Under the pieces are notes generated by a model that ran no database searches, was not told the origin of the DNA, and saw only the letters and a list, made by a program, of their open reading frames with translations. From Actinernus sp. WN-2022 (taxonomy: Eukaryota > Cnidaria > Anthozoa > Actiniaria > Actinernidae), in contig JAOWCC010001608.1 in the NCBI GenBank assembly GCA_030867875.1, positions 1 through 64,000 of the forward strand: a DNA stretch of 64,000 nt. Reading direction: 5' to 3'. The position numbers and the translations under genes are program-made. Positions 1,719 through 58,018 of this stretch are shown here, one piece after another. Positions within the stretch are counted from its first letter, which is position 1, and every line of letters begins with the position of its first letter.

Positions 1719-2022
1719 GGGACCGGACATTATTTATGGCGGTAGGGGGGGGGGGGGGGGGGGGGGAAGGGGGCTACTAGATTTGCATTGTGGCTTGGCC
1801 AAAAAATTGTGACCCTGAAATTCTCTGGTCTCACATAATGATAATGACGCTCCCCTTAGATAAGCCTATAAATATATATAACCTTTAAAAGAGGAGCATA
1901 TAAAAATGTGACCCCCTAAATGGGAACATAAAAAATCGTGACCCCCCCTACAACTCTAGTAACCCCCCCCCCCCCCCCCCCCCCCTTCCCCCACCCCAAC
2001 CGCTAAATAATGCCCGGTCTCT
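1719..2022. mobile_element. MITE with poly-G / poly-C arms
   Basis: The ends form an inverted repeat: GGGACCGGACATTATTTA on the left against GAGACCGGGCATTATTTA read from the right. Just inside lies a run of more than 20 G (about 1745-1767) and, on the opposite side, a matching run of C (about 1962-1985), so the whole unit can fold into a hairpin. The middle carries repeated 'gtgacccc' phrases. A target duplication could not be read with confidence, so the superfamily is unassigned. Confidence 0.6.
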
Positions 2023-3829
2023 TATTACGATCATGTCGAATCAGGATGTATTATCCAAATACAGGTTTGACTGTAACCGCCGCTAATAGTCCTATCCCGG
2101 TGATCGATAGTGTTTTGTATAGACCGTTGGTAAGAACTTAGAGATCTATTCTAGATCTGAATTTACCAATATGGCTCGTCGATGAAGCGGCCAACTGCAC
2201 CGGATGTAATGCAAAGAATAGAATAAAAGTGAAGTCAGTAAAGGTGGCATACCTCGTATAGAAATGAAAAGAGATGGAGGTAGCATGCGACACTGATCGG
2301 TAGCATACCTTGTTAAGAACTGAAATTAAAAGAGATTTAGAGTCCGGTAGCATAGCTTGCAAAGAACTGGAGGTAACATGCGCGGCACTGGGCGGCAGGA
2401 CACTTTAAAGAAATTGGAAGGCTAAAATAGCGAGTGCCACTGGCTGTAAATACCGAAACCTGTTGGAGACTAGAATAATTGTAGTGGAAGTAAATGGCAC
2501 TGGCTAGCTTACCGATATCGGCAATTAAGGGATAATGAGTTTTCGTAATACGTGGTTTACAAGATAAAAGATTTATCAGCCCTTATGCTGTAATTATTTA
2601 ACTCGACATTGACTTAATTGTTGTGGTTTTTGGATCTTACAGTTTCTATACAAACCACTTATTGATAAATTCACTCGCACCGGAAAATTCATCCCTGTAG
2701 TGTTTTACTTATTTAATGGACTAGCTTACCGGTGTAAATTATTCAGTGCCAATTATTTCCAGTTATTTTACCATGTTATATTATACCTTCGTAATGCACT
2801 CTTAATATTTCTATTGAATTGTCCAAATAAAACGTAGGTTTAGTGCTTTTCACCTCCACTGAAGCTTTGCTGCAGCATGGGTTGGAGTACACGTTCCATA
2901 ATTTTTTTCCAATGTTTTTTCCCCATGGTTTTCGTGTCTGGCTCAGCAATAAGGTACATCGTTTGTTTGGTACACCGTTTTGATATATATGTTTGTCATA
3001 TTCTAGTATACCAGTATTTTTATTAGATAAAATTGGGTGATATGAAGCAAATCTAAGATGGATATCTACTGGGGAGAATTATATTATAATACCTTCCAGC
3101 ATGTAAGATACACCAAGGCAGCATTTATAGATCAATATAATCTTGGCAAGGGGGCACTTCACAGTCTTACTTAAATGTTATAACTATTATTAAGAACACA
3201 AGGAGAAATAAACTGCAATGGATCCGGTGAAATCGTATAAATAGTACGAAGTTTGGGTTCCCTGTGGTGAATGGGCGTGGGTCACGTGATACATTCTTGT
3301 AGAGTTGCTTTGCATGTCTCGAGTTTCTCCTCCCTCTGGCTTTGGAATTGCTTTCTTCATCTCGAATACTATTTCCTTCTATACGAAGGTAAGCTGAAGC
3401 TTGTTCCTTTGATAATTTATATCTGTCGTTTGTTTTGAAGCTTAACTTCTGGTTTCAGCTAACTCGAGTTTGTTGGCGCTGAGTCTCAAATATCACATGG
3501 CGGGGAAGGCGGGCTTTTCGGTGGTTTGGCTCGGCAAGCAAGAAAAAACAACTTGTAACATTGGAAGAGGGCCTTGACAAAGAAAAAGGGACCGAGAAAT
3601 GTGCAGATTAAACGTTCTCGAAAACGTTTGAGTGTTCTACAAGTCAATGGCTTTGTTTGCGCCTCTATCGTCGGTATGTACATGTAATGATGTATGCTGA
3701 CTATGTTTGTATACATAAACTAATGTCATCCTCTGTTTTACCCATTTCAACTTTCCGCCCTCCACTCAAAAGATCACTTGAAAACTGGACCTTCAACCAC
3801 TTCCAGCTGGGACTCAGCTGTTTTTCTTA
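2023..3829. other. no recognisable gene; degenerate repeats near 2170-2400
   Basis: Around 2170-2400 a loose unit containing 'ggtagcat' and 'aagaactg' recurs at irregular spacing, suggesting a decayed tandem repeat. The remainder up to 3829 shows no coding signature that I can support. Confidence 0.35.
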
Positions 3830-4289
3830 TGCACCTATCAGCGGCTTCCCCGAGGGGTCGACCGCCGGGCTAACCACGGAGATATGTGGGGGAATGCAGG
3901 AGAATTGAATGCAAACATTGCCCCTGGGGTCGGGTAAATGCTCAACTTTGTTTTAGGGTTGGAAAACTGGGGTGGGGGATTTGTTCAAATTGTTTTTGTC
4001 ATTAAACTAACCACGGAGATTGTTTTTCCTCCTTTAATACAAGAGTTAAAGCGTGAGATTTCGATGCCAAGTATTCTTGAAGTTTGGCATTTAAATGAAA
4101 TCATTACAGATAAGGCATAATAACTTTGTTATGTTTAGGTCATGTAGGTCATGTAAGACCTAACCAGGGGACTTTGAAAGGGATGATTCCCCTACCCCTG
4201 GGGGAAATCGTCAAGATTGTTTGTGTCTTTTTACAATTCCCCTGGTCAGCCTGGGGGTCGACCCCTCGGGGAAGCCGCTGATAGGTGCA
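3830..4289. mobile_element. Harbinger-like MITE with TTA target duplication
   Basis: The two ends are an inverted repeat of about 33 bp: TGCACCTATCAGCGGCTTCC at the left and its complement at the right. Both borders are flanked by TTA (3827-3829 and 4290-4292). A 3-bp TTA duplication is typical of PIF/Harbinger transposons. The interior is 460 bp with no transposase, so it is non-autonomous. Family assignment rests only on the duplication length and sequence. Confidence 0.7.
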
Positions 4290-4292
4290 TTA

Positions 4293-6004
4293 CTACTGTA
4301 CTGTACATATGCATGTCTAACTGACGAGCCACCAGGCCACACCAGATTCTTGAGACTATTGAGAACATTTTAGAATAAGAAAACTCAATGTGATTTTCCT
4401 ATCACCTGATGCATGCAAGTCTTTGAACTATCTTAATTCCCCCTTGTCATCAAGAGTGGTCGCCATCTTGGGTCCATTTTTATGAATTTTTGGGCCCAGC
4501 TGGGCGAAGTAATCACTTATCTAGTGACTCAGCGAGTTTGACTTGAGAAATTCTGCTAGGCCTTCTGGTTGACAGTTGGTGCCGTCACAACCATTACAAA
4601 CCACAGGGATCCCATTAACCCACACAGACAAAATATAGGGACTAGGCTGATACATCACTATATTCACATGAAGAGTACCTGGAGGTGAATATAACATACA
4701 AGGCATTTACCAAAATAACCACTCGCATATTTACCTATGTTTCTTGCAAAGAAATAAATAATATGAAATCCACCAAAGAAGCAACTAATAAGTATGGCCT
4801 AACTTGAAGCTTTTTACTCGCATATCCCTCGGTTGTTTAGATACAAGATCCATCCATCCTTTGACAACCACTTTTAACTACATCATACATGTAAGAAGTA
4901 ACATTCGGTAAAAAGGTGAAACAAAAAATGTATTTTTGTCAAGTCGTCTTTATGCGCAGAAGCAAAATTTGCATATACATGTAAGAGTACATGTCAATAA
5001 ATATATTATGGCATTGTAAATTGGGTAATTTACTTCTGGTAAAGAGTAAAGGATTTTACAGATAAAAAACACACCAAGGTATAATAACAGATCATCCATC
5101 TAGAGGGAAATACATTAATATCACTGCCACTTCTCCTATGGGAAAGTTTGTCTTGAAATGAACAAACCAAATGTCTGTAGTCTTCCATACCAACACAAGA
5201 AAATGCTTACTGCCGTTTTAGTTTTCAGGTGCACTGGATCTTTATGTATGTTCAATAAGTTTAAAGGGCAGGGGAAGATATTATTACATGTATCGACAAC
5301 TGCAAGATAAATGATCTATTTTGTTTCTTCCTGTGATTGGCACAAGCTATTGTTTTGTTATTTCAAATAAATACATTAGGCGAATGGAGCTGTGGGTGAA
5401 TTGACTTGGGGCGAAGCGAGTAAGGGCAAAATGACTGGTATTCATTACATGAGAATCAACTTTGCCGAGTATTAGCTTAGCGCAAGGAGTCTTGGAAAGT
5501 TCATTTAGAAGCATTTTTCCTTATGTGGTCAATGACTTTTATTGCATGTTATGGCTTCTAAAGGCGTTGTGCATTTGTCAAGAGCCTCAGTGACCTGACG
5601 CTAGTCCCGTGCGGGCGATGCTATCCGGAATAACCTTCAGGTGGCCAATATATCGTCTACATTTCCCTGCTATGACGGTGTCCCAGAATCAGTGGATACC
5701 GACCAGTAGCTCCTTGTTCATCGGCTTGACAACGTGGCAGATAAAGCTCTTCAGTTCCACAGCATCTCAATGTGATTGGGACGTGGGCTCTGGGTGGGGC
5801 TGGGCCAGAACTGGATCTAGTTCTCACAGCCAATAGAAAAGCTAACCAAACACAAAACCAAAGCAGTCCCTTATTATTTTCAACACTCAGCCGAAAACCG
5901 CTCTATGCGAAAGTGCATGGTAAACAAACTGTTGCCGTGGTACACAAAGTGATGACGGAGAAAGCTGTTACACTGAATTATTTGAATTATTCTAGTTCAC
6001 AAAA
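4293..6004. other. no recognisable gene
   Basis: AT-rich DNA with several copies of TACATGTA-type palindromes. No reading frame in this stretch shows a domain or splice structure that I recognise. Confidence 0.45.
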
Positions 6005-6341
6005 TAACTTCAAAGATACATGTATATTGTTTGAAAGCTTTCAGTTTACAGTTTAACATTTAAAATAAGTTTACATTGCGTTTTTGACAAGAGCTACGAA
6101 AATCAAAGAAAACTGCAGCGCTTTGACAACTTGAGTTGTTATGATGCCGAAAGCGTGACTTGATAATTTTTCGCTTCACAAATTATTTCACTCTATTTCA
6201 AAGATATAGCATTTGAAAGCTTTGAATTTACAGATTAACGTAAAGTTTGTGTTTTTGAGGAGCTATGAAAATCAAAGAAAACTTCAGTGCTTCAACAACC
6301 CGAGTTATTACGCCGAAAGCGTGACAATATAATTTTTCATG
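6005..6341. repeat. two diverged tandem copies of a ~185-bp unit
   Basis: Copy one (about 6005-6180) and copy two (about 6193-6341) share phrases in the same order: 'caaagata', 'tttgaaagcttt', 'aaaatcaaagaaaact' and 'gccgaaagcgtgac'. The second is shortened by small deletions. This is a local duplication rather than a multi-copy satellite; function unknown. Confidence 0.6.
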
Positions 6342-7640
6342 GACATTTAGTATAGAGACCTAGAGATTGCTATTTCGTTGTCACGTATTACTGTGCTGTA
6401 GTTTCCACACAGCTTTAGCCTGTTCTGAACTCTTGGTTCATTTGGTTTTGTGTTTCTTGTAGTCTACAACACATTAATTTGCGTGATGGCGTGATGGCTT
6501 GATTTCATAGCTTGAAGAAGTGTTGATTGACGAAGTCATGACTAGCGAGATGAACGTCAAGAGTTGTCCCGCGATCAACTGCGAACATAGAAACTCATCG
6601 TGATCATTGTGCAAAATTTTCTCGAGCAATTTTTGCCAATTTGCCCGCGAAAAATGTACATACATGTATGTTTATGGGCGGTACTGTATCTCTAATTACA
6701 TCAGTGAATGTGCCATGTTTAGCAGTAAAACCGAACTTAAAAGCATGTTTGCAAAAGCGATCAATACAGCTAAGGTATTTATCTTTGTATGCGCTAGATC
6801 TACTTCAATGGCGTAAAAAAAATAGTGACATAATTAGACTATCAAAAAGTGCAGTAAGTTGATCTTTGGGTTAACCATAATATTTACATACTCTAATGAT
6901 GTATAAGCGACTGTTAGCTTTATGCAAGAGGTAGTCTATTTGAAGATCCCAGTTACATAGATTTTCTTGAAGAGTAACTCCTAATAGCTTAATTATTTAG
7001 TCAGCTTTTGCGCTCTATTCCAGCAACAGGATCAGGGAGAGATTTAGTTGTTTTGCCTCTTACCACCATCTCCCAAGTCTTAGTAAAATTTAATGTCATT
7101 TGATTAATTAAGGACCAATCCTTAATATTATTAACTTCTATAATATGCTTGATACAATCCAAACAGAAACACAAACCCTTAACCCTTTATAGCCCAAGGT
7201 TTTAATTTTTTTTTTGCTATTTCTACACTGAATTGAACCCTACTCCCCCCTAAAAAAACTGTAGTCATTGTTATCATGGAATTTTTAACTGACCTACATT
7301 GTATAATATTGGGGGCTCAAAGTTCTCAATCTGCCATTTTGAATGCATTGTCGTTGTATTACTACGAAGTTGGCAGGAAGTTTGTGATGGGTATGAGGTC
7401 TATGAACCAATTAGAAACAAGAACTCGTAGGTGTGCCTTTTCCTGATGCTCGTAGCAGTTTCCTGGGCCATTCCACAGTATTTGGGACATGGAACTCTGA
7501 ATTCTTAATTACTGAAAACTTTCAAGATCATTGCATTTTGCCATTATTGAATAACTAAAGTATACTAAAATATGACTTTGAAATGTCGGCACACTCTTAT
7601 CTTGTCATAAATTATCATAATTAACTGAAATACAAAATTG
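6342..7640. other. no recognisable gene
   Basis: Several short reading frames overlap around 6470-6860 but none has recognisable protein similarity. The rest is AT-rich DNA. Confidence 0.4.
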
Positions 7641-17884: not shown

Positions 17885-19826
17885 CTAAGGTCTGTAATGA
17901 AACAAATTAGAGAAATTCACCAAATTGAAAATAATCAGCCGAGATTTGATCCTGCGTAGTCGCTTATCGGGTGACTTATCTTCAGTAAGCCATACGCGAT
18001 ATTTTTCTGATATATGCCATCGAGATAATAGATCTGCCGTGCGGTTCGCTTGCGAGGATAAGTGCACCGTTCGCAGTTCAAACTGCCCTTGCGCTGATTT
18101 TAATCATATTTCTCGCATACACTGCGCTAGGACCTTATCTTGCGTACGCCCACTGTTGATAACGGAAACAACCGCCTCGTTATCACAGAAGACCTGAATT
18201 CTAAGCCCAGTCCAATGCTGGCCCCACAAACGTACTGCAACCATAACAGTGAGAAGCTCGAGGTGATGAATAGCTGTGCAGACGTCATGTACGGCGCTTG
18301 GGAATACGGAATGAAAGTACGCTGTGGATGATATGCCTCTGCAGCCCGTGAGGCAGGCGTCTGTGGCAAATACCGCGTCCGGCGCTGACCAAACTGAACT
18401 CGGTATGACAGAAACTCTGTTATATGTGGGAAGAAAACGTATCCACTAATGAATGTCTTTCCTGAACTCCGCCATCAACCGTACATGATGGTTAGGTCCC
18501 TTTAGAGAGCGTAACAGTTCAAGATTTCGTGACACGAATATCCTGCTTTGACGCACACACTTTGAGACGAACATAAGCTTCCCTACTAGGGATTGTAGCT
18601 CTTTTTTTGTGCTTGACTTTTTATGGATCCAGAACTTTAGTAAGAGCGCGATCTCCTGCAGCCTCGACGGTGCAACTGACATAATCATACGGTTAGTATC
18701 GATCTCGATCCCTAAACATGTGACCACAGTAGATGGAGGTACGGCTTTGTTTTCAGATTCTGTGAGTCCCAATTGAGTTAACGTGTTATTTAGGAAACCG
18801 TACGCTTCCCATGCCTGTTCCTCTGGGGCAACTCCCATAAAGTCATCCAAGTAGTTTACGATGTGATGCCCAGCTTGCGAGCACATATAACTGACAGCCG
18901 TCGTAATCCGTTGGCACGCCATTGCCGAAGAACGGAGTCCCATGGGCAGCACTGTATCAAAATATATGTTTTGTTCCCAGGTATAACCCAATAAAGGGTA
19001 ATCTAAGGGGTCAACGGGGAATTGTCTATTGGCCCGACGAAAGTCACGCTTGAAGATATACACTGTAGCATCCTTTCCCATTAAGAACAACTAATTCTGC
19101 TATATTATCCACCGTAGGGTAACACAGATGGAAATGTTGACCATCATACTCATCGCATGCGATGCCATCATTAACGGAAGCTCCCTGTGGCCAACTTAAG
19201 TCGAGAATAATCCTACGCTCCGTTCCCTCCGACTTTGGTACCGAATTCAGTGGCGAAAACGCCATACGTCCTCCTCAAAATGGTACCTCTGAATATGGCC
19301 CGCTTACCGCCCCTCAAGATATTTCTTCCAGAATGTACGTTGAAACTGCGTAGGGATAACTCAACGCTCCTCTGTGCGTACGATTATCACTAATTAGGAA
19401 GTCGTACTTGGCATAATTATAATTCACCGGCCTTCCATACCGCAAATAGTCACAAACGATATCAGAATAATCAGTTAATTTTTCCTCCCATATGGCGAGA
19501 TTGAGGTTTGTTACTAATGGGATGCGCCTATGCCGATAATTTGACATACATGTACCCGTCATGGCTACCTGTTCGTGTAAGTTCACATAATAATTACTGC
19601 TGTCCAATATGTCAGTAAGTGCTTCCGGAGATTCACTGGCGAAATAATTACTTGTATCATTATTTTCAATGTTATCTGTTACGAGGAGGTCACGATTCGT
19701 TTCCTGAAGGACGCCACCATGTCTGTCCATTAACATTTGTTGAATTTCATAGTCACGATCTGAAATATCACGATCAACCTGAACTACAGAGTCACGATCC
19801 ATAGTGTTATAAGCTGGGTAAACCAT
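17885..19826 (-). pseudogene. DIRS reverse transcriptase and RNase H
   Basis: Minus-strand frames (19826-19314, 19265-19044, 19090-18446, then to about 17885) give a broken pol. The catalytic box YLDDFMG is at 18853-18833, preceded by FDTVLPMGLRS and LLGYTW, all typical of DIRS RT. Upstream, SVPKSEGTERRIILDLS fits the fingers region. RNase H follows: FATDACLTGCRG near 18380, HHLELL, FCDNEAVV and NRTADLLSRW near 18030. At least three frame changes separate the pieces, so it cannot make an intact enzyme. Confidence 0.8.
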
Positions 19827-20035
19827 AGAGTCACATCCATAGTGTTATGAACTGGAAAAATCATAGAGTCAAGATCCATAGTATTCCTAACTGAATAAAC
19901 CACAGAGTCACGATCCGTAGTGTTACAAACTTGATAAACTACCGCAGAGTCACGATTTATAGCGGTATGAACTGGATAAACTAAGGAGTAATCATCCATA
20001 TTGTTATGAACTGGATAAATTCACGACCCGTATCG
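19775..20035 (-). repeat. ~15-codon tandem repeat in the DIRS coding region
   Basis: Six or so degenerate copies of a 40-50 bp unit encode variants of VYPVHNTMDRDS on the minus strand. They lie between Gag and the RT domain, at the start of the RT frame. A protein-level tandem repeat here is not a standard DIRS feature and probably arose by local slippage. Confidence 0.65.
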
Positions 20036-22745: not shown

Positions 22746-23599
22746 AAATCGAATTGTGGGCAAATCTTGAATAACGGATCATACCCTGGTTATCCACATG
22801 CTAAATAGTTCGCATTATCATGAAAGTACAAACACTTCAAAATAATCAAGTTGGTCGCAACTTAACTCTTTAAAAATGGAGTGTTCAAGACTTCATCTGA
22901 TGACCAGTACTGTTAGATATCAAGCTTTGAGTGAGACCCATAGCAAAAACTACTCCAAGGAAATATTTGAGCTCAACAGTGGTAACTGGTGAAGAACAAC
23001 TGGAATTAAGTTGGGCGTTTTTTCATCAGGAAGATCACCTTTTATCATTGGATCTCCACGAAACTCAGGCTGTTCAGCAATGTAGTTGACAACAGTTGGA
23101 TCACTACTCCAAAGATACAGGAAGGAACCATGTCTTGCTTTACGTTTCTGCAGCCTCATATTTTTTTATTGAAATATCGTAACTTCACTGACAAAAAAGC
23201 CCTTAGCAACACCTTAACACAAACGGAAACTTTGGTTGCTGGTTAAATTTAAAAGAAGGGCATTTTCTTTTAGAAGGAGTAAGAATATCCCAACTGAAAA
23301 TAGTCCCAAGTAAAAATAAGAGATCCAGAAGGGATTAAAAAATATTATGTTCCAGAAATTTTAGTGCCTAGAGATTGTGTACACCATGCCTGAAATTATA
23401 TGAACAACTCCTGACCCAAAACATTGGTGTTGGAATTGTCAATACCTTCAGTGTCAATACACCAGTACACCAGTATTTATCATTTGAAAATGAGGTTTAG
23501 TTTTACCATACACAGTTCATTTGAAATTGAAAATTAATATTCTATATGAAATTTAAATTAAAGATTGGGTATTTTCTCTTGTAAATTGAGTTAATAATA
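22746..23599. other. unassigned stretch with one open frame
   Basis: A minus-strand frame at 23159-22950 (69 residues, begins MRLQKRKARHGSF) is open but not recognised. Its position upstream of piggyBac copy B makes an N-terminal transposase remnant possible. Nothing else is seen. Confidence 0.25.
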
Positions 23600-28273: not shown

Positions 28274-29869
28274 ATGCAGGAAGCTACGAAAAAAGCAGGT
28301 GCTACGAAGCACTGTTCTTGGGGTATTTGTTCATCCGATTCACGATATCCTGATAAATTACCGCCAGAAACCTTCTTTATAAGGTTTGCTAAGCCTGGGA
28401 AAGTCAAAGAATCCATGACTGATTGGGAAAAGCAGCAAGAAATGCAAAAAACGCTCAAAGCAAAACGGTGGATTCACGCTTGTGGTCGAAAGGATTTTTC
28501 CACCGAATATATAAAAAAGGACACTTACATTTGTTCCTTGCATTTCGTTGGGGGAAAAGGACCGACTGACGAACTTCCTGACCCATTACTGGCACATCTC
28601 ACTGACGAAGAACAGGCCACGAGATTGAAGAAAAGGAAATGTCCAACACCAAGAGTTGCGTTGCCGCCAAAACGTAAACGAACCGAGGTGGTAAACCCCG
28701 AGTTAGAGCTGGCTACATGAGAGCCTTCTGCAGTATGTGAAACGTCTCTTTGTGAGTCGAATTTGACTAGTGATCAAGCTGTTGATGTTGAAACTTGTTC
28801 AAATCAAGTTAATAAAGAAACGCAGACAGTTTACGATAAATACATTCTTGGAGCAAAGATCGAGTCAATTTTGGTTAAAAATAGCAAGGCCTTGACTGAG
28901 AGTCCTCTTGATCCATCGCCATCCCAAAGTGGAAACACTATGAGTCCAGATGTTATACTTGCTGATGAGAAGAAGTCCAAATACTTTATTGGTTTATATC
29001 CCCAGCAATTTGATATGTTATACGAATTCCTTGGGAAGGCAAAATTTAATTTGGTCTACTGGAGGGGCCCGAAGACAACACCCAAAGTATCGAAGGCCAG
29101 CTCATCTACTGACGATAAATCGAAACTTACCTTAAAGGAGCAGTTGTTTATCACATTGCTTAGATTGCGTAGGGGGTTTAACATTTTTACCATTGCACAT
29201 TTTTACAGAGTTACTGGAAAGTATGTGCGGGAATTTTTTTTAACCTGGGTTATGTATATGTACCAACACTTTAAAGATCACAAATATTTTATGTTTCCAG
29301 AAAGGCAGGTATTTTGGAAACACCTTCCAAAAGTTTTCAGACGATTTAAGAATGTCCGATGCTCTGTAGATTGCACTGAATTTTTTTGTCAAATGCCCAC
29401 AGATTATGCACGGCAAGGAAACACATATTCGTCGGATAAGCATCATACCACTATGAAATGCCTAATTGCAGTCAATCCTAATGGGGCGGCCTGTTATGTA
29501 TCCGATTTATACGAAGGTAGCATAGATGATGTTGAAATATTTAAGCAGTGTGGTATACTCGAGCATATCAATCCTAATGATCTCCTCTTGGTTGACAAAG
29601 GGTTTACAGTTCAACACTTATTGTTGGCAAAGCAAGCTACAATAGAAATACCAGCATTTCTTGGAAAGCGAGACAAATTTACAAAGGAAGAAATTCTGGC
29701 AACTAAACGAATTTCAAAGGCTCGGATACATGTGGAACGATTCAATGAAAGGCTAAAGAAATTTAGACTGTTAGATAGAACTATTCCACTGAACCTGAGC
29801 CATGTTGCATCTCAACTTGTTTATGTTGCATCCTGTTTGGTTAACTTCCAGGAATGTCTATGCAGATGA
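28274..29869 (+). pseudogene. THAP-domain DDE transposase (DDE_Tnp_4 type), one stop codon
   Basis: A single frame runs from the ATG at 28274 to the stop at 29867-29869 with only one in-frame TGA at 28718-28720. The N-terminus has a C2CH THAP zinc finger (HCSWGICSS, a Trp in KRWIHAC, and YICSLHF) that would bind the element ends. The C-terminal part carries the DDE_Tnp_4 catalytic triad: Asp in SVDCTEF (about 29370), Asp in LLLVDKGF (about 29595) and Glu in RIHVERFNERLK (about 29735). Length and domain order are those of a full transposase. It could be restored by a single base difference, so the copy is young or is read through. It converges on the nuclease gene at 31084-32966. Confidence 0.85.
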
Positions 29870-31083: not shown

Positions 31084-32966
31084 TTAATCGAGCACAACAG
31101 GAAGAAGTCTGCGAGGGATTTTCATCAGGAAATACTCAGGGATAAGAACTTTGCTCCAAACTATCTTCGTAAATTCCACAATCTTGTCTTGCGTTTCTTT
31201 ATCATGATAAAAACGTTCCACGTGTGGCTCACCCTTTGGAGTATGGAGAACGAAGTCACAGTAGTCTGCCTCGGTTACCAATAACAGCATTTGGTAGTAG
31301 TAGGCATGTCCTTTTTTCAGAACCAATTTCCCATTTACAATTGAAAAGCACTGCCTGTTCAAAACTTTGTTTGGTTTGCCAATGTCAACAGAATTTATTA
31401 ATTCTGTAACTGTTTGGTTCCTCAGTACTTTCAAGCATTTGATTTCAACAATCCCAAACGTATCTTTGGATTTTACGATACCATCAGGACTTGCACCCAA
31501 ATGTGGGTATTTTGTGTTTACCCAAATACCAGTTTCTGTCACATTATTTCCAGTTTTGTCAGTATATGCTTTTCTGGCAGAAGGCTCTTCTTCGATACTA
31601 TATTGCATGTCAAATGTTGTAATATTGTCAGGATACCATAACTTGTTCCTCAACCAATTATAACACCTCTGTAGAGAAACTGTATTACTCTGCACTTGCT
31701 CTCCCATGCCAACAACAACTTTGCATATAGAAGCTGTTATACGACACCAACGTGCTTGACACCATTCCTCACTCTTACTCTGACTTTCAGTGTTTGGTAT
31801 TTGACCCACAGTAAATTTGTCAGATATTGAGGACAAACTGTCAGCCAATGCTGTTTCAAATTCTGTCACAAGGGATTTGTAGTGAACTACGTCTGCATCG
31901 TCAAGCTTGAAATCCTGGTAATTTATTTGAAGCAGAGTTTCCCACATGGATAAAGTTCCTTGAGTAGCACTGTATGCTTGTAAATTTTGCAGGAAGGTAT
32001 GAACACCATCCTGGTCAACTTTATTTTGGAATTCCACAGGTAGAGGATCCCAATTAAACAGTGCGCTAGAGCTACTCTTTTTACTTGACTTGTATGATGA
32101 CTTGTGGAGGGCTTTGGGATCTTTCGTCCTCTTTTTCCCTTTATTCCATTATTCCATTTACAAGGCTGCGAGGTCGATGGCTCCACCACAACATGCCCAT
32201 TGTCTGACACGTAGTCCGAAAGCATCAATAATACCGCTGCAACATGACAGCAACGGTTTAATTCTCGAGCTTTACAAGTACATGATACTTGTTGGATAAA
32301 GCCACTAACCTTTCCAATACGAACAAAGACTTGCAGAGGTAAGTCTGATTTCATTGAATGATGGACATGGCATCTTAAAAAATAACTCTCATCATTGTCA
32401 TTGTCATGGCAGTTCTCAACAAAACCGCTTTTCAAAAGACCTCTTCCTTTCTTAAGTGGTTTCGCTGTTACGGTATCCCCAACGTCAACTGCTTCATCGT
32501 CCTCATTGTTGTCGTCGGGTAATAGATCCACAACTGATTCGACGTGGTGGTAAACATATCCGTAATTAAACATCACTGGGATGTTTCTTGACGGAAAATT
32601 TCCCCAGCCCGATTCAGGGAACTTCGTAGAGCTTTCCGTGTCGGTACTAGTAGATGATTTGGCCTTAATATTGTACCATTTACCTCCATCAACCTTCGGG
32701 TCAACCTTGATTTTTAGAGAAATGCATCCGTTTACACGGTCGACTAATTCTTGTTTTTCCCCACTTTTTTTCTCACCGTGGCACTCTAACCAACGTTTCA
32801 GCTCTAGAACATTGCAATCACCCGGTGGTTTGGTTAATTTGGCGCCTGGGACTTCATCTTCTGTGAGTAAAACTCGACAATTATCCACAACACGTACAGG
32901 AATCGCAGAAACTGGTGTTTCCGAGGCAGCAATTTTGAAATATTTGTCCGCATTTCGATCCCACAA
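31084..32966 (-). pseudogene. SAP-SWIM-YqaJ nuclease of ISL2EU-like element
   Basis: Two overlapping minus-strand frames (32966-31923 and 32037-31084) form one protein split by a frame change near 32065, in or beside a run of A residues. Domains in order: a SAP-like helix pair (residues about 52-80 of the first frame, LELKRWLECHG), a SWIM zinc motif (about 229-241, CTCKARELNRCCH), then a YqaJ/lambda-exonuclease fold: EEWCQARWCRITAS, GASPDGI (metal-binding Asp), VEIKCLK (the E-x-K pair) and YYYQMLLLVTE (the Gln helix). YqaJ proteins are DNA exonucleases or recombinases. It likely aids element movement, which is inference. It converges on the transposase gene. Confidence 0.85.
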
Positions 32967-33029
32967 TGCAATGCTGCCAAATATGTAAATATTTTATGAC
33001 GTCACCTGGGCGGAACGCTATTACCTAGG

Positions 33030-38769: not shown

Positions 38770-40076
38770 CCACTTGTCAGTTCTAGTTCGACCACGCTAT
38801 CTTGGCTAATAAACTAGGGACGTTGGACCTCCCACATGGAATCGTGCGTTGGATTATTGATTTCTTAAAGTGCCGTAAGCAGAGAGTCAAACTAGAGCGT
38901 GACTGTAAATCAGAATGGAAAGACATCCCTGCAGGCGTCCCACAGAGAACCAAGCTAGGGCCGTGGCTCTTTGTACTTATGATCGACGATATAGGAGTCA
39001 CCAACACCGACTTATGGAAATATGTAGATGACACGACTATCGCTGAACCTGTCCATAAGAACGAAATAAGTAACATCCAGAATGCTGTATCAGAACTGGC
39101 CACAAAGTCGCACCAGAATAAGTTTCAATTAAATCAAGCAAAATGCAAAGAGCTACGAATATCATTTGCTAAGAGTGCCCCCAACTTCGCCCCTGTCGTT
39201 GTGGATGCGAAACCTATTGAAGTAGTTTCCAACTTCAAACTACTTGGCCTGAACATTTCAGATAACCTAAAATGGAACGTTCATATCTCGGAAATCATAC
39301 GAAAGGTGTCTACCCGACTGTACTTCTTGAAGCAACTTAAAAGAGCAAACGTGTTAACAAAGGAACTCTTGACATTCTATGTTACATGCATACGCCCAAT
39401 AACCGAATACGCCTGTCCCGTGTTCCATAACGGGCTCCCGCAGTATTTGTCGGAGGATTTAGAAAGACTGCAGAAGCGTGCTTTAAGAATCATTTACCCA
39501 TTCACCACCTATCCTGAAGCTTTGGCAGCCAGTAACCTAACTCCACTCTACGATCGCAGAAATGCCCTAACAATCAATCTATTCAACGAGATCAGCTCCA
39601 ATGTGAACCATAAGTTGCACAACTTACTGCCTAAACCAAACACATGTAATGCTAATCTTAGAAGTAAGCGGAGTTTCAATGTGCCCATATGTAAGACCAA
39701 CAGACTGAAAAACAGTTTCATATATAGTAATAGCAATTAGAATATAACAATATAACAATAACCAGAATATATATAGCAATATTGAGTAGAACCTTCATGA
39801 TTATCAAGACACAGTTCTACATATAGTAAGATTATATCTAGCAACTATCAGTAGCAATATTGATTAGAATTTTAATTATCAAGTCCAACAGACTGAAGAG
39901 TTTTATACTTTATAGTATTATTAATTAGATTATAATTAGCAACTATATTTTATATCAGTAGCAACATTGATTAGAATTAATTTTAATTATCAGTATTTTC
40001 AAATTTAATGTAAAGTCTTACGCAATTCAGCTTTCCAGCTGCAACAGTTATTACTAATAAACCATCTATCTATCTA
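38770..40076 (+). pseudogene. CR1/L2-like LINE, RT second half and C-terminus
   Basis: Frame 38802-39740 is open for 312 residues: GIVRWIIDFLKCRKQRVKLE, AGVPQRTKLGPWLFVLMIDD, KYVDDTTI (the catalytic Y-x-D-D box), then FKLLGLNISDNLKWNVHI, YACPVFHNGLP, LQKRALRIIYP and RSKRSFNVPICKTNRLKNS at the C-terminus. This is the order of Jockey/CR1-group LINE ORF2. The 5' half, with endonuclease and early RT, is missing. The 3' UTR is AT-rich and ends 'ccatctatctatcta' near 40062-40076. The long open frame implies a fairly recent, 5'-truncated insertion. Confidence 0.85.
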
Positions 40077-49809: not shown

Positions 49810-51407
49810 TTAAGTGATCATTGGTGGCCAAAAATTTGACAAGCAAGCTATAACAATCCATGCATCAGATGCAATACTTGCAGTTGTAATTGGTATAACT
49901 CGATCGAACAACTGCCAATTTTTCAAACGTTCCATGTAACGCTCAACATGTATTCTTAAACTTGCAATTTTCTTGTTATGCTGAGTTTCCGTTTGTGTGA
50001 ACTGACCCTTATCACTCAAGAAATTGGGCATGACCAGACGAGCAGCAACAGCAGCCAGTTGGTCCCGGATTATGAACCCCTTGTCTGCCATAACTAGATC
50101 CCCTTTGTGTAGATAGCTTATGAATCCTGACTTCTCCACAATATCTGGGTCACTTATGGAACCACAATATAACTCACTCGCAAAGGAAACAGCACCATTT
50201 GGAGTTATTCCAAGAAGTGCCTTCATTGTGGTGTGTGACTTATAACTTGAATAACAGACAGACTGTTTGTCAAGACTTGAAGGGGATTCCATTCTGATTT
50301 CTGTACAATCAATTATTGAAACTAACTCACGATACAGTTCTCTAAAGACAGGGGGCATATAGAACTTAAGTTGCTCTTTGCTTGGCCATACAATACACAG
50401 GGGCTGTAATTCACACTTCATAAACTTTATCCACGTTCTACAAATATCTGAAATAGTTGACACAGAAACTCGATAACGTTCTGCCAGGTCCCTCTCTAGG
50501 AGGCCAAGTCTTAGTCTTAGCAGAACAAGTGTAAATTCTTGCCAAAGTGATAATTTCCTTTTGGTAGCTGATTTTCTAACATCAAAGTTAAGCCGTTGGT
50601 GACCTCAATAGCTGAGGTTAGCCGCCTTCACCTTCAGTATATCGTAGCACATAATTTGGAAAACCAGTAAAAAACGATATACATGTATCCTCATCGCAAT
50701 TTTTGTACACATCAATGTCAAACTTGAGGGCCACATGTTAGATAACTATGTAAGGTTAATGTGTCTTCCCTCTGTAAATAAAGAATATTGTATTGTATTG
50801 TATTGTATTGTTTGTACTTGAGTTTATCAAAATCCTTTTCCAAGGAGTTTAGCCTTTCTTTCAGAGAGACTGTTTCGTCTTCTTGTTCATTATAAAGACT
50901 TGACTTATCATTGCCATCTGTGGTCATAATGCGGGGTTGCACAACATCACTATCAAGGGCAGGATTCTCTGAACATGCTGAAAGTGAACCGGAGTTTGTT
51001 TTGGCTAGTTGGCTTTCAGTTTCAGACACACAGCCAAGTTCACTAACAGTAGCTTCTGGCACATTATCTGCACAGCAAACTGTAGAAGAGGGAGAGGACC
51101 TCTGCTCTGACGTTTTTGCTCTCTTCGGTAGATCGTATTTCATGATTTCACGGCGGTTTTTTTCGGGCTTAGGCCAAGGAAACAAAGTCGGAAGCTGCGC
51201 TTGAGACATCCTCTCTCCTCCAGGGAAGTGTGCACCACATATTTTCGTACTAGTGCTGAATTCCTTTAGATTGTCATTTCTGATCAGCCTTTTATACTCT
51301 ATACGTACTTTATGGTCTGCTGGCAGAGAGTGGAACTTCAGACCAGGTGAATTTCTCCAGTTGTTTGAACATTTTGGCACAACAATTATACTTCCCCATC
51401 GCATCAC
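49810..51407 (-). pseudogene. THAP-domain DDE transposase, ISL2EU-like copy 2
   Basis: Minus strand. The N-terminal frame 51407-50718 has a degenerate THAP domain: KCSNNWRNSPGLKFHSLPAD and ICGAHFPGG, with the first zinc Cys and the core Trp not found. A low-complexity linker leads into a short retroposon end at 50712-50816. Beyond that come broken pieces (FFTGFPNYVLRY near 50660) and then the open frame 50463-49810 with the DDE_Tnp_4 triad: Asp in SIIDCTEI, Asp in LVMADKGF and Glu in RIHVERYMERLK. Non-functional because of the insertion and frame changes. Confidence 0.85.
50712..50816 (-). repeat. retroposon 3' end inside the transposase
   Basis: On the plus strand the segment ends 'ccctctgtaaataaagaatattg' followed by a (TATTG)n run to about 50810. 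The AATAAAG signal plus pentamer tail is the 3' end of a LINE or SINE inserted in plus orientation. It splits the copy 2 transposase, so it postdates that copy. Confidence 0.6.
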
Positions 51408-51780: not shown

Positions 51781-52618
51781 AATCAGACCTTTAGCACCTG
51801 TTCGGTGCCTCTACAAAGCCCAGTCATAAAGTGTATTAATCTAGGGTTTGTTTCACGGGTTGAGTAAAACCACTATTTCATAATCAGTCTTTAAATACAT
51901 GTATATTATTCATCAACAAATGAGTCATTATTAGTAATTCAACCATGTATTGACTCAAGAAACAGATCAATTGATAATTTCAGTTTTTAATGTTGTATAT
52001 TTGTACACCAACATCCAATTCACAGGTGACTACTTTTGCTTGTGTACATACATGTAAGTTGATTTGCACCTCAAAACTGTGTTCCTAAAATTACATTGTA
52101 TGCACGAGCACACGCATGTATAGCGCAGATATGGTGCTACTTCATTATTGTATACACAACATACTTAGCATTTATTTAAACATTTCCACCTCAAAATGAA
52201 CTTGTTTTCTTAAAATGTTGTCCAAATAATTTGTAGAAATAATTTGTATAATAATTATTATTAAGAAACAGTCATACAGATTTGCAGTGTTGTATCCAGA
52301 TTTTCCAATTCTGAAATTTTGGGGTCCAAACTGGGATTTCAGGGGTCCAATAAATTAATGTTCATTTTCATACTTTATCAATGCAACAGTTATTTTTGTT
52401 TTTTTGCTCCTTGCTTTTTGAGTTTTGCACCTTGATTTTAAATTAAGGTTTGAATAATTTTGCTTCGCTTTTTTGGAATTTTAAGGCTCTCAAATTCTCC
52501 CAGATGATCTAAAATGGCTTAAGGATCTCTTTCTTTCTAGTTGTGAGCACTAACAGGCTACCAACTTGACAAAATGTACTGAAAACCTTGCATCCAAAAA
52601 GACATCTTTGCTTCTTTT
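51781..52618. other. no recognisable gene; no RAG2-like sequence
   Basis: AT-rich, several TACATGTA-like palindromes, no supported frame. In RAG-like transposons of other animals the RAG2-like gene lies tail-to-tail with RAG1-like, which would place it here on plus; no kelch repeats or PHD motif could be seen. Confidence 0.45.
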
Positions 52619-55600
52619 TTACCCGTCCAAAATGAAAATATTGCGTCCAGGATGCAATGATGCGCTCTGGATACAACAATCAATTTTGGAGGGACAGGTC
52701 ACAGAATTATGGCCAATTTTATTACATCTACTGCATTTATACTTGTTCCTGGAAACATGACTTAGTTGAATCAGTGCATGACTACAATAAAGCCAATGCA
52801 TTCGTAAAACATCTGTGACACTTTCAAAGGTGCCACTTTTTCTTGAGTGGTTCTTACGTAAATGCCTGAATATGTTATTGCCCGTCTCATTTCCCTCGCC
52901 TGAAAACCCACCCAAGGTGCCCTCTACTTCAATGACCTCTTTAACATGCTTTATTGTTTTATGCACATAATTAGACCAGCGTGCATACGAGTGATTTACT
53001 TTTAAGAGCTCACCAAACTCTTTTCCTACTGCCTTGTACTTAATCCACTCATTGGGGTATTTTTCTTTTGGGTTTCTACAACTAAATATTTTGTGCATAA
53101 ATCGTAACTAACATAATAATTTTGAAATATCGTCTTTTGTTTTTGCAGGCTTTAAAACGTGTTTTTAATTTTCTTTAGAAAATGAAATCCTAGCAAAATT
53201 GCCAGGCATCAAATTTTTGAAGTTGCAGTCCAACTTGCGAGTAGCATTTACAATTAAATGCTTTGCATCACGTGTCTCATCCACTGACTTCAGCAATCTC
53301 TCGAGCAAGCAGCTTGTATGTAAATTTCCCTAAATTTATTTTTGCATGAGTTGCATCCGCTTTATGATCAGAGTGTTCTATATTAAGTACTGGGTGGCTT
53401 TTAACTCCTTTTGCTAAAGCAGAAAGCTAAAGCTGTTTTGGTTAAGGTTTTCAAGGTTAAAATGAAGGAGGTTGGGAATAGCCTTTGTTTCATGGAGAGA
53501 GCGGCAAATGCTAATGGTTCCAAGTTCAGATTTAGCTGTTTGCTGTATAGCATAACATAATCCACACGTGTAAGTCGATCCTGCTCCCTGAAAACCACCA
53601 TCTGCACGAGTTCTATTTCCATCGACCATTAATAATAATTTCAATAGCGCCCTTTCCTAAAATATGTTCAAAGGCGCTTCACAATTATATAATAATTACA
53701 GAAAAAAAACTAATTACATATAAAATAACGTCTAAAGAATAATAGGAAAAAGAAAAGCCGATAAAACCCAATAAAGCTAATCTAAAATACAATAAAAATA
53801 CAAGAATGTCGTATGTTAAAAAAACGCAATCAATAAAACTCTTTCCGAAATAGATGTGTTTTAAGATTATTCTTAAAAATGTTCAAAGAGGCACTGCATT
53901 TGATTTGCAGTGGAAGTGCATTCCATAATAATGGCATAGAGAAAGCACGGTATCCATAAGACTTGAGATTATAGTTTGGTGCTTTAAGTAACATCTTAGA
54001 GCCAAATCTCAAGGAGCGCTGAGGGACATAAGGTTCGAGTAGATCATTGAGATACTTTGATGCTATACCATTAATTACTTTATACTTGAAAAGAAGAATT
54101 TTAAATGCGATATGCTGCTCAGCAGGCAAACAATGCAATTGGAGTAAGATAGGTGTAATATGCTGGGATTTGCGTGTTAATGTAACCAGCCTCGCATCGG
54201 TATTTTGTACATACTGCAGCCTCTGCAACTTCCTAATTTCCTAATGCATGACATGTTTCTGATTGAATAAAAAGCCGATTTACAAATCTGAGTTATATGT
54301 TTGTCCAACGATAAGGCATTGTCATAAATAACGCCGATGTTTCTTGCAAATCCAGAGGATGTAACAGAGACACTGGCCACTGCATCTAATAGAGTTGACA
54401 AATATCAATTTGCACTTCCTCCAGACCCCTTTCATTTCAATGCTCATGTAATTTTGAGTAACTTGTTACCGCTCCTTTTCAACTGGGTCAACACAAACCA
54501 CCATGGCAGCAGTTTGATTTTCATCACATACACTGTACTGCTTCAATTAGATTCCTGTTAGTGCGTATCGACCCGGGTAACCTTTCTTTCCATATTGTTT
54601 CTGTGCTTCCATCACACTGAAATTTAATGTTTAATATGCAAAACGACTATCTACAAGCTTTGTCAGCTAAAAAACGGTCATGTTTTTCTTTATATTGTGA
54701 AACATCACCAATGCCATCCCCAGTGTTTGAACCTCGAGTGTTTGATTGTCATCTATATTGTATTTGTCTAAACCTTCCTCGATGTCTGTGGCTAGTTGAG
54801 AGATAGCCTCTGCCACTGCATCAGTATAACTTCAGCATACTCCAACGACATTAGGTATAGGGAATTGAGGTAGTGCTAACCTAAAACCTGACGTAACATC
54901 AACAGGTTTGGAATTGCACTTGTTGTGGATTAATTGAATATCCTCATTATCAATTAGTTTGTAGCTCATCCAAGAAGGAAGGTAAGTGTTTTCTACATTG
55001 TCCACTTGATATGGAGGTTTAAAAACAATCTGTCTCCTTGACTTCAAAAAGTCATACTGCTGCTTATATTGTCTTTTGTTGTAAAAGATCAATCCTGCTT
55101 GCCAAGTATTAATCAGCAGTAATTGTCTTGTTGTTCCCACAAGTTATCAACTTTATCAGCAAGTTCCATTTTACCGTTTGCTCGTAGTTTTGTTGACAAC
55201 AAGGACAACAGAATATCCTCTTCATCTTCAATATTTAAATCACAAAATGACGACATGATGGGCAAATCCACTGCTACATTGAAGCCATCTTCTAATGCAG
55301 TATTCACAAAAAGCATGATGGCAGCCACTCGGTATTTGGTACATGCAAGCAAACAGCACATTGGAATACTTTGGCAAATTCTCTTGCTGTGAATCTGTCC
55401 AAAGGTATTCCAGGTAGAGGATGGATATCTTCTCAAATGGATCTACCCGTGACTGTTTCTATTCTGTATAAGTCATAAAGGATTTTGGTGATGTGTCCTT
55501 ACCAGATGCAGCACTTGTTGTTTCTGATGGGTGATGAAGACAACTGCAACCATTATTTTTAATTGTGCTTGGGATACTAGGTGGTGCATAAAATATTCTT

Positions 55601-56060
55601 AGTGCACAACTTCTTACTTCGCATTTGATCTCTATCAGTCAGTCCTCTCTTTCTTGAACTTTGTCTCTGGGTGTAGTAACGTACATGGCAGCTCCCTGTC
55701 ATTTGTAAATATTCTCCATGAGGACTAAACTCAAAACATTTTCATTTATCCAGGGGAAGTTTCCTTTGATTCTTGCTCTTCCCCTTCTTGTGTCTTTGAA
55801 TTTTAAGGACACAGCAGTTACACAAAAAGCTGGGATGCTGATCTTTGGTGTCGCCAGAAATATCTTAAGTTGTCAATTTACAACTAATTTGGGTTTGTGC
55901 CTAGTATTTCCACTTGCAACTGCAGGCGAGTGAAACGGCTTCCCACATCTTTGGCAAAACATGCCCAGTCTTTCTTGTGAAGTGTGACATACATGTAACG
56001 ACACATTCGCTTCAAAATCTGTGAGTTCAACGCAAAGTTTGGACGTGTGCACACGGTAGA
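52619..56060 (-). pseudogene. RAG1L: RAG1-like transposase/recombinase, near full-length, decayed
   Basis: Minus strand, pieces in RAG1 order. FCQRCGKPF (55959-55933) and HPSFLCNCC (55837-55811) match the N-terminal zinc motifs. A RING finger: CAVC (55360), CHHAFCEYCIRRWL, then CPSCR (55264). DILLSLLSTKLRANGKMELA and SWMSYKLID (55220-54950) fit the dimerisation/DNA-binding region. GDGIGDVS (catalytic Asp codon 54718-54716) and VCDEN (Asp 54525-54523) match the first two catalytic sites. After a LINE, GSTYTCGLC (about 53585) and DATHAKINLGKFTYKLLARE (about 53360) form the zinc region, then MPGNFAR. FSGEGNETGNNIFRHLRK holds the third site (Glu 52897-52895), followed by DVLRMHWLY. The end is a CCHC knuckle CSRCNKIGHNSVTCP (52735-52694), known from invertebrate RAG1-like tails. 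At least seven frame changes or stops: dead. The RING and N-terminal zinc motifs separate it from Transib. Confidence 0.88.
53630..54390 (-). mobile_element. 5'-truncated CR1/L2-like LINE inside the RAG1-like gene
   Basis: Minus-strand pieces: SGFARNIGVIYDNALSLDKH and KSAFYSIRNM (about 54360-54260), then VQNTDARLVTLTRKSQHITP, FKILLFKYKVINGIA and SYGYRAFSMPLLWNALPLQI to the stop at 53830. This is the post-RT and C-terminal region of CR1/L2-like ORF2. The 3' end has 'gcgcctttgaac' and finishes in an AAT tract beside 53630. On either side the RAG1-like reading resumes: KCKLIFVNS before and MVDGNRTRADGG after, so the LINE inserted into the coding region. Confidence 0.8.
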
Positions 56061-58018
56061 GAGTCCCCAATGTCTTGCAAGTAAACACTGAGTAGCTAGG
56101 CAAAAGCACCAATTTTAACCAGAGAAACCCGAAAATAAGTCTAACGACTTGGACTTTCGATTTTCGAAAATTACGATCAAGAAACAGTGTATAGCAAACA
56201 CAAATTAGCGTTTTCTCAACGAGGAATTGAATGGTGGACACTGCGCATGTGCACAATCAGTAGTTTTTCTTCCAGGCATTCCGCGCATCTGTGACCACAA
56301 AGACAAGGGAAGGGGGACTAGGATTATTCGAAAGAAAAAGTGGAACTAGTGACTAGTAAGTCACCTTGCTTGCTTGAATTCTATCCCACAAAACACACGG
56401 TGAATGGCCTTGTAGAAAATAATGCTCTTGTTCGTAGTTCAGGATGTGCTTCTTCCTTGATACTTTTCTGTTAGTGGACATGTACTTGTACCTTTCTGTT
56501 AGTGGATCCGTATTTGTGCAATTGGCACCAAATGAAAATTTTCTAGATCAATACGCGAAGAACCATCACCATCAGCCGCCAACTTGGAATTGACAGTGAG
56601 ATACATGCATCACTCTAAACATAGAATATACAATATTGTAACTGTAAAAAAGGTTTGCTGATACTTATAGTCTTTGTTCTACACTATGGTCACGTGACCA
56701 AGACGTCCAGGCTTATTTCATTAACTCTTGTTGCTCAGTCCCTGTCACAGAGAGCCCCGCAATGGCACAGTGCTGTGAATGGCAGCTCAGCACAGACGCA
56801 TTTACAGCGTCTAGCACATCCTCTCTCGTTCTTTCATCCACACTTCAGGTAATCTCGTACCCAGATCCCACTCCACGTTTTCCTATCCAAAGAAGTGGGA
56901 TCTGGTAAAGTTCGACACTACGTTTGCTCTCATTGGCTACAATGAAACACAATAGCCGCATTGTAACACTTGTTTTGATTGGTTGTCCTGTTTTGTAAGA
57001 TTTGCGATGGAGTGTGCTCTGAAGAGAAAAGAAGAATATAGCAGATAGTATCAGAACTACAAGTAAGGGCGCAAATGAGGAACTAAATGTCGTGAATACT
57101 TTCTACATTTCGGGAGATGAATACGTGGAAGATTTTGAGGTATTCTGATTTTGGAATAGCCGGAATACGTCCCAAAAGAATACGACAAGTGCCATTCTAT
57201 GGAGCGATTAAATTGCACAATGGATATTATATCACTGCATCAGTCTTTTTGTCCGATTCTGGGAATATGTGTGGGAGCATGTGTAATCCCATGGGAATTT
57301 TGTGAAGTAAGCAAGCCACTAGTTTAGATATCTTAATGGGACCCTAAATAACGCAAAAAAAATTGGTGGCACTTTTGCAACTTGCACCGAGGGCCTTAAT
57401 AGTTTTTTTAAAAAATGACGTATATTCTCCAGCATGGAAACGAGGCTACATCAGTTAATTGTTTATATCTTTTAACCATGTGAATAAAACCACACCAAAA
57501 TCACTAAGATGATGTGTTTCGATGTTTAATACTCTTCTTGGGGTTCTTACGTGGTAGGGGGTCACGTGACTGAGTTGCCATGGAAATGAGGCTAAGATCT
57601 AGGCTTGGTTTTTGATTTTATTACACGAGTAAACTCCGCCAAAATATAACTGACATGACCTTATTACTTAATTTATAGCTTACTTTACTAGTCATTTCGA
57701 TGCCTTCATAGAAACGAGGCTGCTGTTGTGATAGCCTAAAAAGCATCTCCAAAAACTGTTTCCTTATTGTTCAGTTTGATTTGTAATGCTGAACGTATTT
57801 TTCTTTCAAAAGAAAAGCTATTTTTGACTTATCTTCTTTCTTAATAGGTACTGCAATACAGTTACTCTCAAATGACTCATTGAAAAGCATTTAAGAATGT
57901 TCCTAAGACCTCGAGTGACACTACTCAAACATCATTAATCTCGATATCACCCTGACTAAATCAGATTATCAGTCACTAAATAGCTCTTGATCCACTGACT
58001 AGCTAACTATCTAGCTAG
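56061..58018. other. no confident gene; hairpin at 56862-56915
   Basis: The RAG1-like frame can be extended upstream to an ATG at 56256, but the extension has no recognised similarity, so the start is undetermined. At 56862-56915 CCCAGATCCCACT pairs with AGTGGGATCTGG, a small hairpin repeat. No recognised coding sequence to 58018. Confidence 0.4.

Follow-up and report, generated by a model that had tools for sequence, protein, structure and literature searches.

Does a broken RAG1-like (RAG1L) gene in a probable cnidarian genome belong to a genuine lineage of RAG-like (RAGL) transposons, and what does it say about how early the ancestor of the V(D)J recombinase arose? The question is raised by a stretch of 64,000 nucleotides (positions 1 to 64,000 of contig JAOWCC010001608.1; hereafter the window), in which an earlier note, made from the letters alone, had described a near full-length RAG1-like pseudogene. 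We find that this copy is almost certainly the remnant of a dead RAGL transposon in a hexacoral, with complete relatives in the same genome that have the build of cut-and-paste elements duplicating 5 bp of target. The evidence consists of the gene pair of RAG1L and RAG2-like (RAG2L), their domains, the terminal inverted repeats (TIRs), the target site duplications (TSDs), near-identical copies, and the decay of the window copy. In itself the window copy is an unexceptional dead representative of a known and important type of transposon, in what is apparently a new host group (here and below, "in part" marks a cited source available only in part).

The Pfam RAG1 profile matches window positions 52619-53107 (5.5e-22, 78 bits, cut-off 25), and a RAG1 profile search of the whole genome recovers the locus independently (5.4e-22). 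An open RAG1L protein of the same genome (P0009, family B, see below) aligns with the minus strand piecewise and collinearly from 55977 to 52685 (tblastn), from the N-terminal FCQRCGKPF motif through the C-terminal zinc knuckle, which bears out the pseudogene and its orientation. The interval first given for it, 52619..56060, does hold RAG1L, but the copy is larger by DNA comparison, running from 56350 to 51815 (blastn against a family B element). Compared with that element it is without the 5' TIR (the first 40 bp) and also without the coding region of RAG2L. The Kimura two-parameter (K2P) distance between the two is 0.092 over 3289 aligned sites, counting substitutions alone; with gaps included, the three main blocks are 82-89% identical and two small downstream blocks 69-72% (blastn). 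Decay is evident from stops, frameshifts, one insert (54388-53631), and one deletion near 55250, of 242-262 bp under two scorings and corresponding to about P0009 residues 265-356, which took out the last CxxC of the RING, the adjacent zinc finger, and the nonamer-binding domain (NBD). The C3HC4 RING claimed by the earlier note is therefore incomplete, with six of its ligands left and spread over two frames (tblastn).

The other motifs reported for the copy are present, namely FCQRCGKPF, HPSFLCNCC, GDGIGDVS (read from the DNA), the CDENQTAAMVV block, CGLC, GEGNETGN, and HWLY, and all three catalytic positions are kept (GDGIGD, MVDGN, GEGNE). The second catalytic Asp had been misplaced: VCDEN aligns with LADES of RAG1, and the residue is instead the D of NSMxDEKR, aligned to GYDEKL of RAG1, whose Asp we take to be D708; in the window this stretch reads MVDGNRTRADGG, and the Asp is the D of MVDGN. 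The C-terminal tail (CTT) motif Cx2Cx3GHx4C, described for RAGL by Martin 2020 (PMC7204232, in part), reads CSRCNKIGHNSVTC in the window copy and CSKCNQLGHNCISC in P0001. Both the insert and an N-terminal RAG2L fragment at 56594-56371 had gone unnoticed. The family B element is uninterrupted across its positions 4170-4172, where the window copy has the insert; an open reading frame (ORF) inside the insert (53830-54240) has no Pfam match, so that the label of long interspersed nuclear element (LINE) rests on recognition by eye. The RAG2L fragment runs in the same direction as RAG1L, while the normal arrangement is convergent. It is joined to the RAG1L 5' end near an ACTAGT repeat, and no TIR was found at the junction. 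A twin of window positions 52255-54734 lies on scaffold C1676 (97.7% over 2493 bp), with the nested insert common to both, and is either a segmental duplicate or the other haplotype.

The window copy has intact relatives, as a search of the rest of the genome shows. The RAG1 profile gives 30 matches, all above the cut-off, the first 12 of them without an internal stop, and three RAGL families (A, B, and C) can be distinguished, each with a RAG1L and a convergent RAG2L gene between CACTAYG TIRs. Seven elements were read with their flanks, three of family A (on C942, C685 at 52.4 Mb, and C635 at 133 Mb), three of family B (on C635 at 18.6 Mb, C888, and C1615), and one of family C (on C734), and RAG2L is present in every one. 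Four elements (L002, L004, L006, and L007, that is, the three of family A and family B on C635) have a RAG1L of 957-976 aa that is uninterrupted between stops, and in each of them the convergent RAG2L is open as well, over 523-564 aa. Both frames are open and both TIRs present in three elements of families A and B (C942, C685 at 52.4 Mb, and C635 at 18.6 Mb). The 3' TIR of the family A element on C635 is truncated; in family B the C888 element has a frame-shifted RAG1L end and lacks its 3' end, and that on C1615 has RAG1L split over two frames. Within family A, the three copies share about 99% identity. Both TIRs were read in six elements, a set that includes a further one on C685 (108.2 Mb) and excludes the two with truncated 3' ends; five are flanked by perfect 5-bp TSDs (CGGCT, CTGTC, CATGC, TTAGA, and CTAGG), the sole exception being C685 at 52.4 Mb, which has none.

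The RAG1L protein retains the N-terminal zinc motifs, the RING, an NBD-like region, the catalytic residues D, D, and E, and the CTT knuckle, and its residues aligned to RAG1 E649 and R848, positions that we take to distinguish domesticated RAG1 from transposases, are V and M, the same as in lancelet RAG1L. The best PDB match of RAG2L is lancelet RAG2L (5e-25), followed by PHD fingers; Pfam finds kelch (1.6e-24) and PHD domains, and no acidic hinge is seen by eye, a difference from jawed-vertebrate RAG2. The complete copies thus substantiate the earlier suggestion of a true RAG1-like transposon lineage in this genome. They share with the lancelet element ProtoRAG the CACTATG heptamer, convergent RAG1L and RAG2L, the 5-bp TSD, and the CTT knuckle, and differ in that RAG2L keeps its PHD, which lancelet RAG2L lacks (PMC7204232, in part). 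From jawed-vertebrate RAG they differ in being transposons with TIRs, TSDs, and a CTT knuckle. In the mechanism that this architecture suggests, RAG1L and RAG2L would be expressed from convergent single-exon genes as active proteins and would assemble on both TIRs, the NBD perhaps contacting a second TIR block; the DDE RNase H site of RAG1L would cut beside CACTAYG, and the element would insert elsewhere and duplicate a 5-bp target.

Several observations weigh against this picture of a dead transposon with complete relatives. A loose scan found no TIR beside the window copy, its sole match having 10 mismatches and lying far off at 23504, where we judge it due to chance, and hence no TSD can be defined for this copy. 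No RAG2L was found downstream of the window RAG1L by blastn or tblastn. In family C, of which a single element was read, RAG1L is divided between two frames. The Pfam RAG2 profile stays under its 21-bit cut-off throughout the genome (18.4 bits; 20.5 and 15.7 for the family A and B ORFs), and the genome's own RAG2L was therefore needed as query, which gave 44 matching pieces.

A Transib, or another RAG1-core transposase that had acquired a RING by chance, would also present a RAG1-like core. The genome's RAG1L protein, however, aligns with lancelet RAG1L (6b40_A) at 4.7e-149 and with full-length RAG1 (9jpu_A, 1040 aa, presumably of mouse) at 1.2e-77 over residues 101-1005, in matching domain order from the N-terminal zinc motifs to the C-terminal domain, whereas 6pqn_A, which we take to be HzTransib, is matched at only 1.3e-4 over 70 residues. 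Transib does share the DDE core, the CAC terminus, and the 5-bp TSD (PMC7204232, in part), and elements of the Transib superfamily named Chapaev, with a Chapa domain and in some cases a RING, are described from sea anemone and lancelet (Kapitonov and Koonin 2015, in part). Transib has no RAG2L, while all seven elements read with flanks do. We consider a Transib origin very improbable, and membership was rejected because RAG2L lies inside the same TIR-bounded units. Still less probable, to the point of being negligible, is that the RAGL sequences are deuterostome contamination such as prey or epibiont DNA. The scaffold bearing the window is unplaced and only 231 kb long, but the same families sit on scaffolds of 26-150 Mb. 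Contig C144 holds a mitogenome (repeat unit 15,968 bp) in which the only tRNAs found are Trp(TCA) and Met, TGA codons occur inside genes, nad1 and nad3 lie between the two parts of nad5 (gene identities assigned by eye), and the AGR codons of COX1 stand at what we take to be Arg positions; these features indicate a hexacoral, with a gene order of sea-anemone type. Family A RAG1L shares 76% of 488 aligned positions with a protein of the coral Porites evermanni, compared with 35-44% for the Amphiura and Ptychodera rows, and that protein groups with the RAG1L of this genome in a clade with 100/100 support. Contamination was rejected on these grounds, the large scaffolds, the mitogenome, and the closeness to Porites. 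The assembly comprises 1.39 Gb in 1772 contigs. For the deep-sea anemone Actinernus sp., the probable host, a genome of equal size (1.39 Gb) has been published (PMC10598428, in part); "RAG" is absent from the main text of that paper.

The affinities of the three families were examined in a midpoint-rooted tree of 12 of 15 RAG1L rows, the partial P0013 and P0014 and an N-terminal piece of family C being dropped. The named RAG1L matches in the protein searches, each of which returned six, were Porites evermanni, Ptychodera flava (two), and Amphiura filiformis. RAG1L identity between families A, B, and C is 53-70%. Family A and Porites form a sister pair (support 100/98), family B groups with two proteins, P0002 and P0003 (100/100), and family C with P0012 (93/90, on few shared columns; the other C piece is 75% identical over 291 residues). 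All of these fall in a single 100/100 clade apart from the acorn-worm and brittle-star RAG1L, while deeper forks are weak (39/56). P0002 and P0012 are not encoded in the assembly, where their best matches are 77% and 74%. The families thus seem either to predate the split of at least some of their hosts or to have moved between hosts. Horizontal transfer into hexacorals, in place of descent, would account for family A being nearer to Porites (76%) than to family B of its own genome (65%), the survival of a self-mobile element across the anemone-coral split would be unusual, and Martin 2020 (PMC7204232, in part) leaves transfer possible. We nevertheless regard transfer as rather unlikely, given that all seven rows belong to one clade, that each family is paired with a protein absent from the assembly (A with Porites, B with P0002, and C with P0012), as expected of ancient co-resident families, and that sister identities of 75-77% fall short of near-identity.

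Cnidarian RAGL elements are themselves known: RAG1L-RAG2L pairs occur in Porites rus, Orbicella faveolata, and Aurelia (Martin 2020, PMC7204232, in part), and complete, probably active elements in the corals Fungia costulata and F. tenuis (Tao 2022, PMC9435367). The present elements resemble these in being RAG1L-RAG2L pairs and differ in their host, a probable sea anemone, in the three co-resident families, and in the TSD-flanked copies. The evolutionary implication drawn in the earlier note is already published for Cnidaria (Martin 2020; Tao 2022). The geometry of the TIRs is the new part, and the rest adds to what is known of cnidarian RAGL.

In families A, B, and C the first letter of the block AAATTTCA is base 21 in the 5' TIR and base 32 in the 3' TIR, and in all seven elements with both ends exactly matched the block ends at base 28 on the RAG1L side and base 39 on the RAG2L side. 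Together with the preceding A or T it makes an AT-rich 9-mer, WAAATTTCA, which occupies bases 20-28 in the 5' TIR and 31-39 in the 3' TIR and leaves 12 and 23 bp between itself and the heptamer, with block borders that can be adjusted by one or two bases. Three sets of columns are invariant in all six TIRs: CACTA.GAAA; T...AAATTTCA, whose offset is 11; and CT.GT..C, for which it is 3. The whole genome was scanned for CACTAYGAAA, then 2-32 bases, then AAATTTCA; the scan requires both blocks to be exact, so that altered ends escape it, and gave 43 matches against 4 for a reversed control pattern. Ten are 28 bp long (nine RAGL 5' ends and one elsewhere) and nine are 39 bp long, all RAGL-type 3' ends; the remainder are ten instances of one unrelated 46-bp repeat and 14 of other lengths. 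On C789 a family-C-like 3' TIR carries the block in the same place with one mismatch; in the C235 stretch no TIR was found.

The TIR lengths of 28 and 39 equal those of the 12- and 23-recombination signal sequences (RSS) of jawed vertebrates. This might mean that the 12/23 layout predates V(D)J recombination, with cnidarian RAGL ends of 12-RSS and 23-RSS length being read by the NBD, only unlike ends entering synapsis, and the split antigen-receptor gene inheriting its asymmetry from a RAG transposon; judging from sequence, we treat this as a tentative and doubtful proposal. That the spacing is coincidence, or shared descent without function, has in our estimate an even chance of being right. 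For the latter speaks that AAATTTCA is unlike the RSS nonamer ACAAAAACC, with which WAAATTTCA agrees at 3-4 of 9 positions by eye, so that it does not qualify as a nonamer, and that the limits of the block leave a choice of one or two bases. Within a single family the match at offset 11 is improbable to a moderate degree only (18 of 2000 shuffles in A, 174 in B), and family C matches best at offset 3, through the third block (93 of 2000 shuffles); this block, CTMGTNYC, does not share the offset of 11. The 5' TIRs are almost identical between families to base 31, so that the 5' spacing is hardly independent and the related families are not three independent trials. In a degenerate duplicated copy (L026/L027) the block is 4 bp nearer. 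A scan for exact blocks is blind to altered ends. In ProtoRAG the TR5 block is located elsewhere, after 27/31-bp spacers, compared with block ends at 28/39 here, and cutting the ProtoRAG spacers down to 12 or 23 bp left almost no recombination or lowered it strongly (PMC8289069, in part); Aureococcus RAGL have 4/13-bp spacers separating longer blocks (PMC9435367). All of these points count against a functional 12/23 spacing. In its favor, the positions are constant in three families whose RAG1L are 53-70% identical and whose 3' spacers have diverged, and in all seven elements matched at both ends the RAG1L side has 28 and the RAG2L side 39.

In the literature searched, which excluded figures and supplements with coral TIRs, we found 12/23 spacing nowhere stated for RAGL TIRs. 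According to a hypothesis paper of 2021, no invertebrate TIR flanking a RAG1/2L pair follows the 12/23 rule, and this absence serves there as an argument that the first antigen-receptor gene was split by a Transib and not by a RAG transposon (PMC8355894, in part). Martin 2020 (PMC7204232, in part) proposed that invertebrate RAGL depend mainly on the outermost 15-17 bp and have relatively little sensitivity to asymmetry.

Further RAGL sequences were seen in the genome. At C685:108214882-108224438 (L008, L010, L011, L066, and L067) a family A element with TIRs and the TSD CTAGG contains C-terminally truncated RAG1L pieces three times at steps of about 2.2 kb. On C1315 (217727-243103) a TIR pair 25 kb apart encloses RAG1L and RAG2L and is probably a family A element carrying a large insertion. 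A fourth RAG1L lineage, family D (L014, L023, L029, L083, and L084), is 54-62% identical to A, B, and C and has a few stops and frame breaks; on C1207 (1.26 Mb) neither RAG2L nor a recognizable TIR was found in the 10 kb read, and RAG1L is solitary there. The degenerate copies L026 and L027 on C1706 (5.21 and 5.72 Mb) lie 0.5 Mb apart in opposite orientation with equal match scores and are probably a duplicated segment.

Features of the RAG1L copy in the window and of the sequences that interrupt or adjoin it; family B coordinates are those of the element used for comparison, whose RAG2L ORF spans 6044-7612.
Feature	Position	Strand	Evidence
RAG2L N-terminal fragment of another, more diverged lineage, abutting the RAG1L 5' end	56371..56594	-	tblastn 63-66% to family A/B RAG2L, best E 6.5e-17; blastn 67-69%
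RAG1L 5' non-coding part, N-terminal CxxC and HP..C..C zinc motifs, first six RING ligands	55243..56350	-	blastn 82.5-82.6% (gaps included) to family B 1822-3040; tblastn P0009
RAG1L dimerization and DNA-binding domain (DDBD) to RNase H part, first catalytic Asp (GDGIGDVS), CDENQ block	54389..55250	-	blastn 88.9% to family B 3298-4172; tblastn
Insert interrupting RAG1L, resembling a non-LTR (long terminal repeat) retrotransposon tail (reverse transcriptase C-terminal-like ORF, ATT-repeat end)	53631..54388	-	unmatched in family B
RAG1L second catalytic Asp (MVDGN), CGLC zinc region, GEGNETGN with catalytic Glu, HWLY, CTT CCHC knuckle	52684..53630	-	Pfam RAG1 5.5e-22; blastn 87.4% to family B 4170-5149; tblastn 8.8e-139
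Leftover pieces of the sequence separating RAG1L from RAG2L; copy stops short of the RAG2L coding region	51815..52284	-	blastn to family B 5165-5286 and 5575-5945

Elsewhere the window holds remains of other mobile elements. DDE_Tnp_4 transposases (1.2e-42 and 9.1e-41) lie at 28721-29869 on the plus strand and in the region of 49810-50604 and 50718-51407 on the minus strand, the second adjoining an ORF with a THAP domain (4.2e-7), a pairing that resembles THAP-bearing DNA transposons. At 31084-32993 (minus strand) a YqaJ exonuclease-like ORF (1e-16) adjoins a weak SAP-domain ORF (6.6e-4, below the cut-off), and the two are probably part of another DNA transposon. Reverse transcriptase ORFs at 18446-19090 (minus strand, 2.3e-7) and 38787-39740 (plus strand, 3.2e-8) are retrotransposon remnants, and a tandem array at 19782-20019 has nested periods of 39, 81, and 120 bases. 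Rfam and tRNA scans of the window gave no matches.

To the cnidarian RAGL already known, the findings add an apparent sea anemone host whose single genome contains three families. That each family has a closer relative outside the assembly fits a long residence of RAGL in hexacorals, with RING-bearing RAG1L outside Bilateria. The origin of the 12/23 rule is an open question, for which the spacing of the TIRs would matter more, if it is real, and these copies make it testable. If the geometry is functional, the statements of PMC8355894 and of Martin 2020 would need revising for Cnidaria. The live-looking relatives of the window copy and the spacing of their TIRs merit the attention of specialists.

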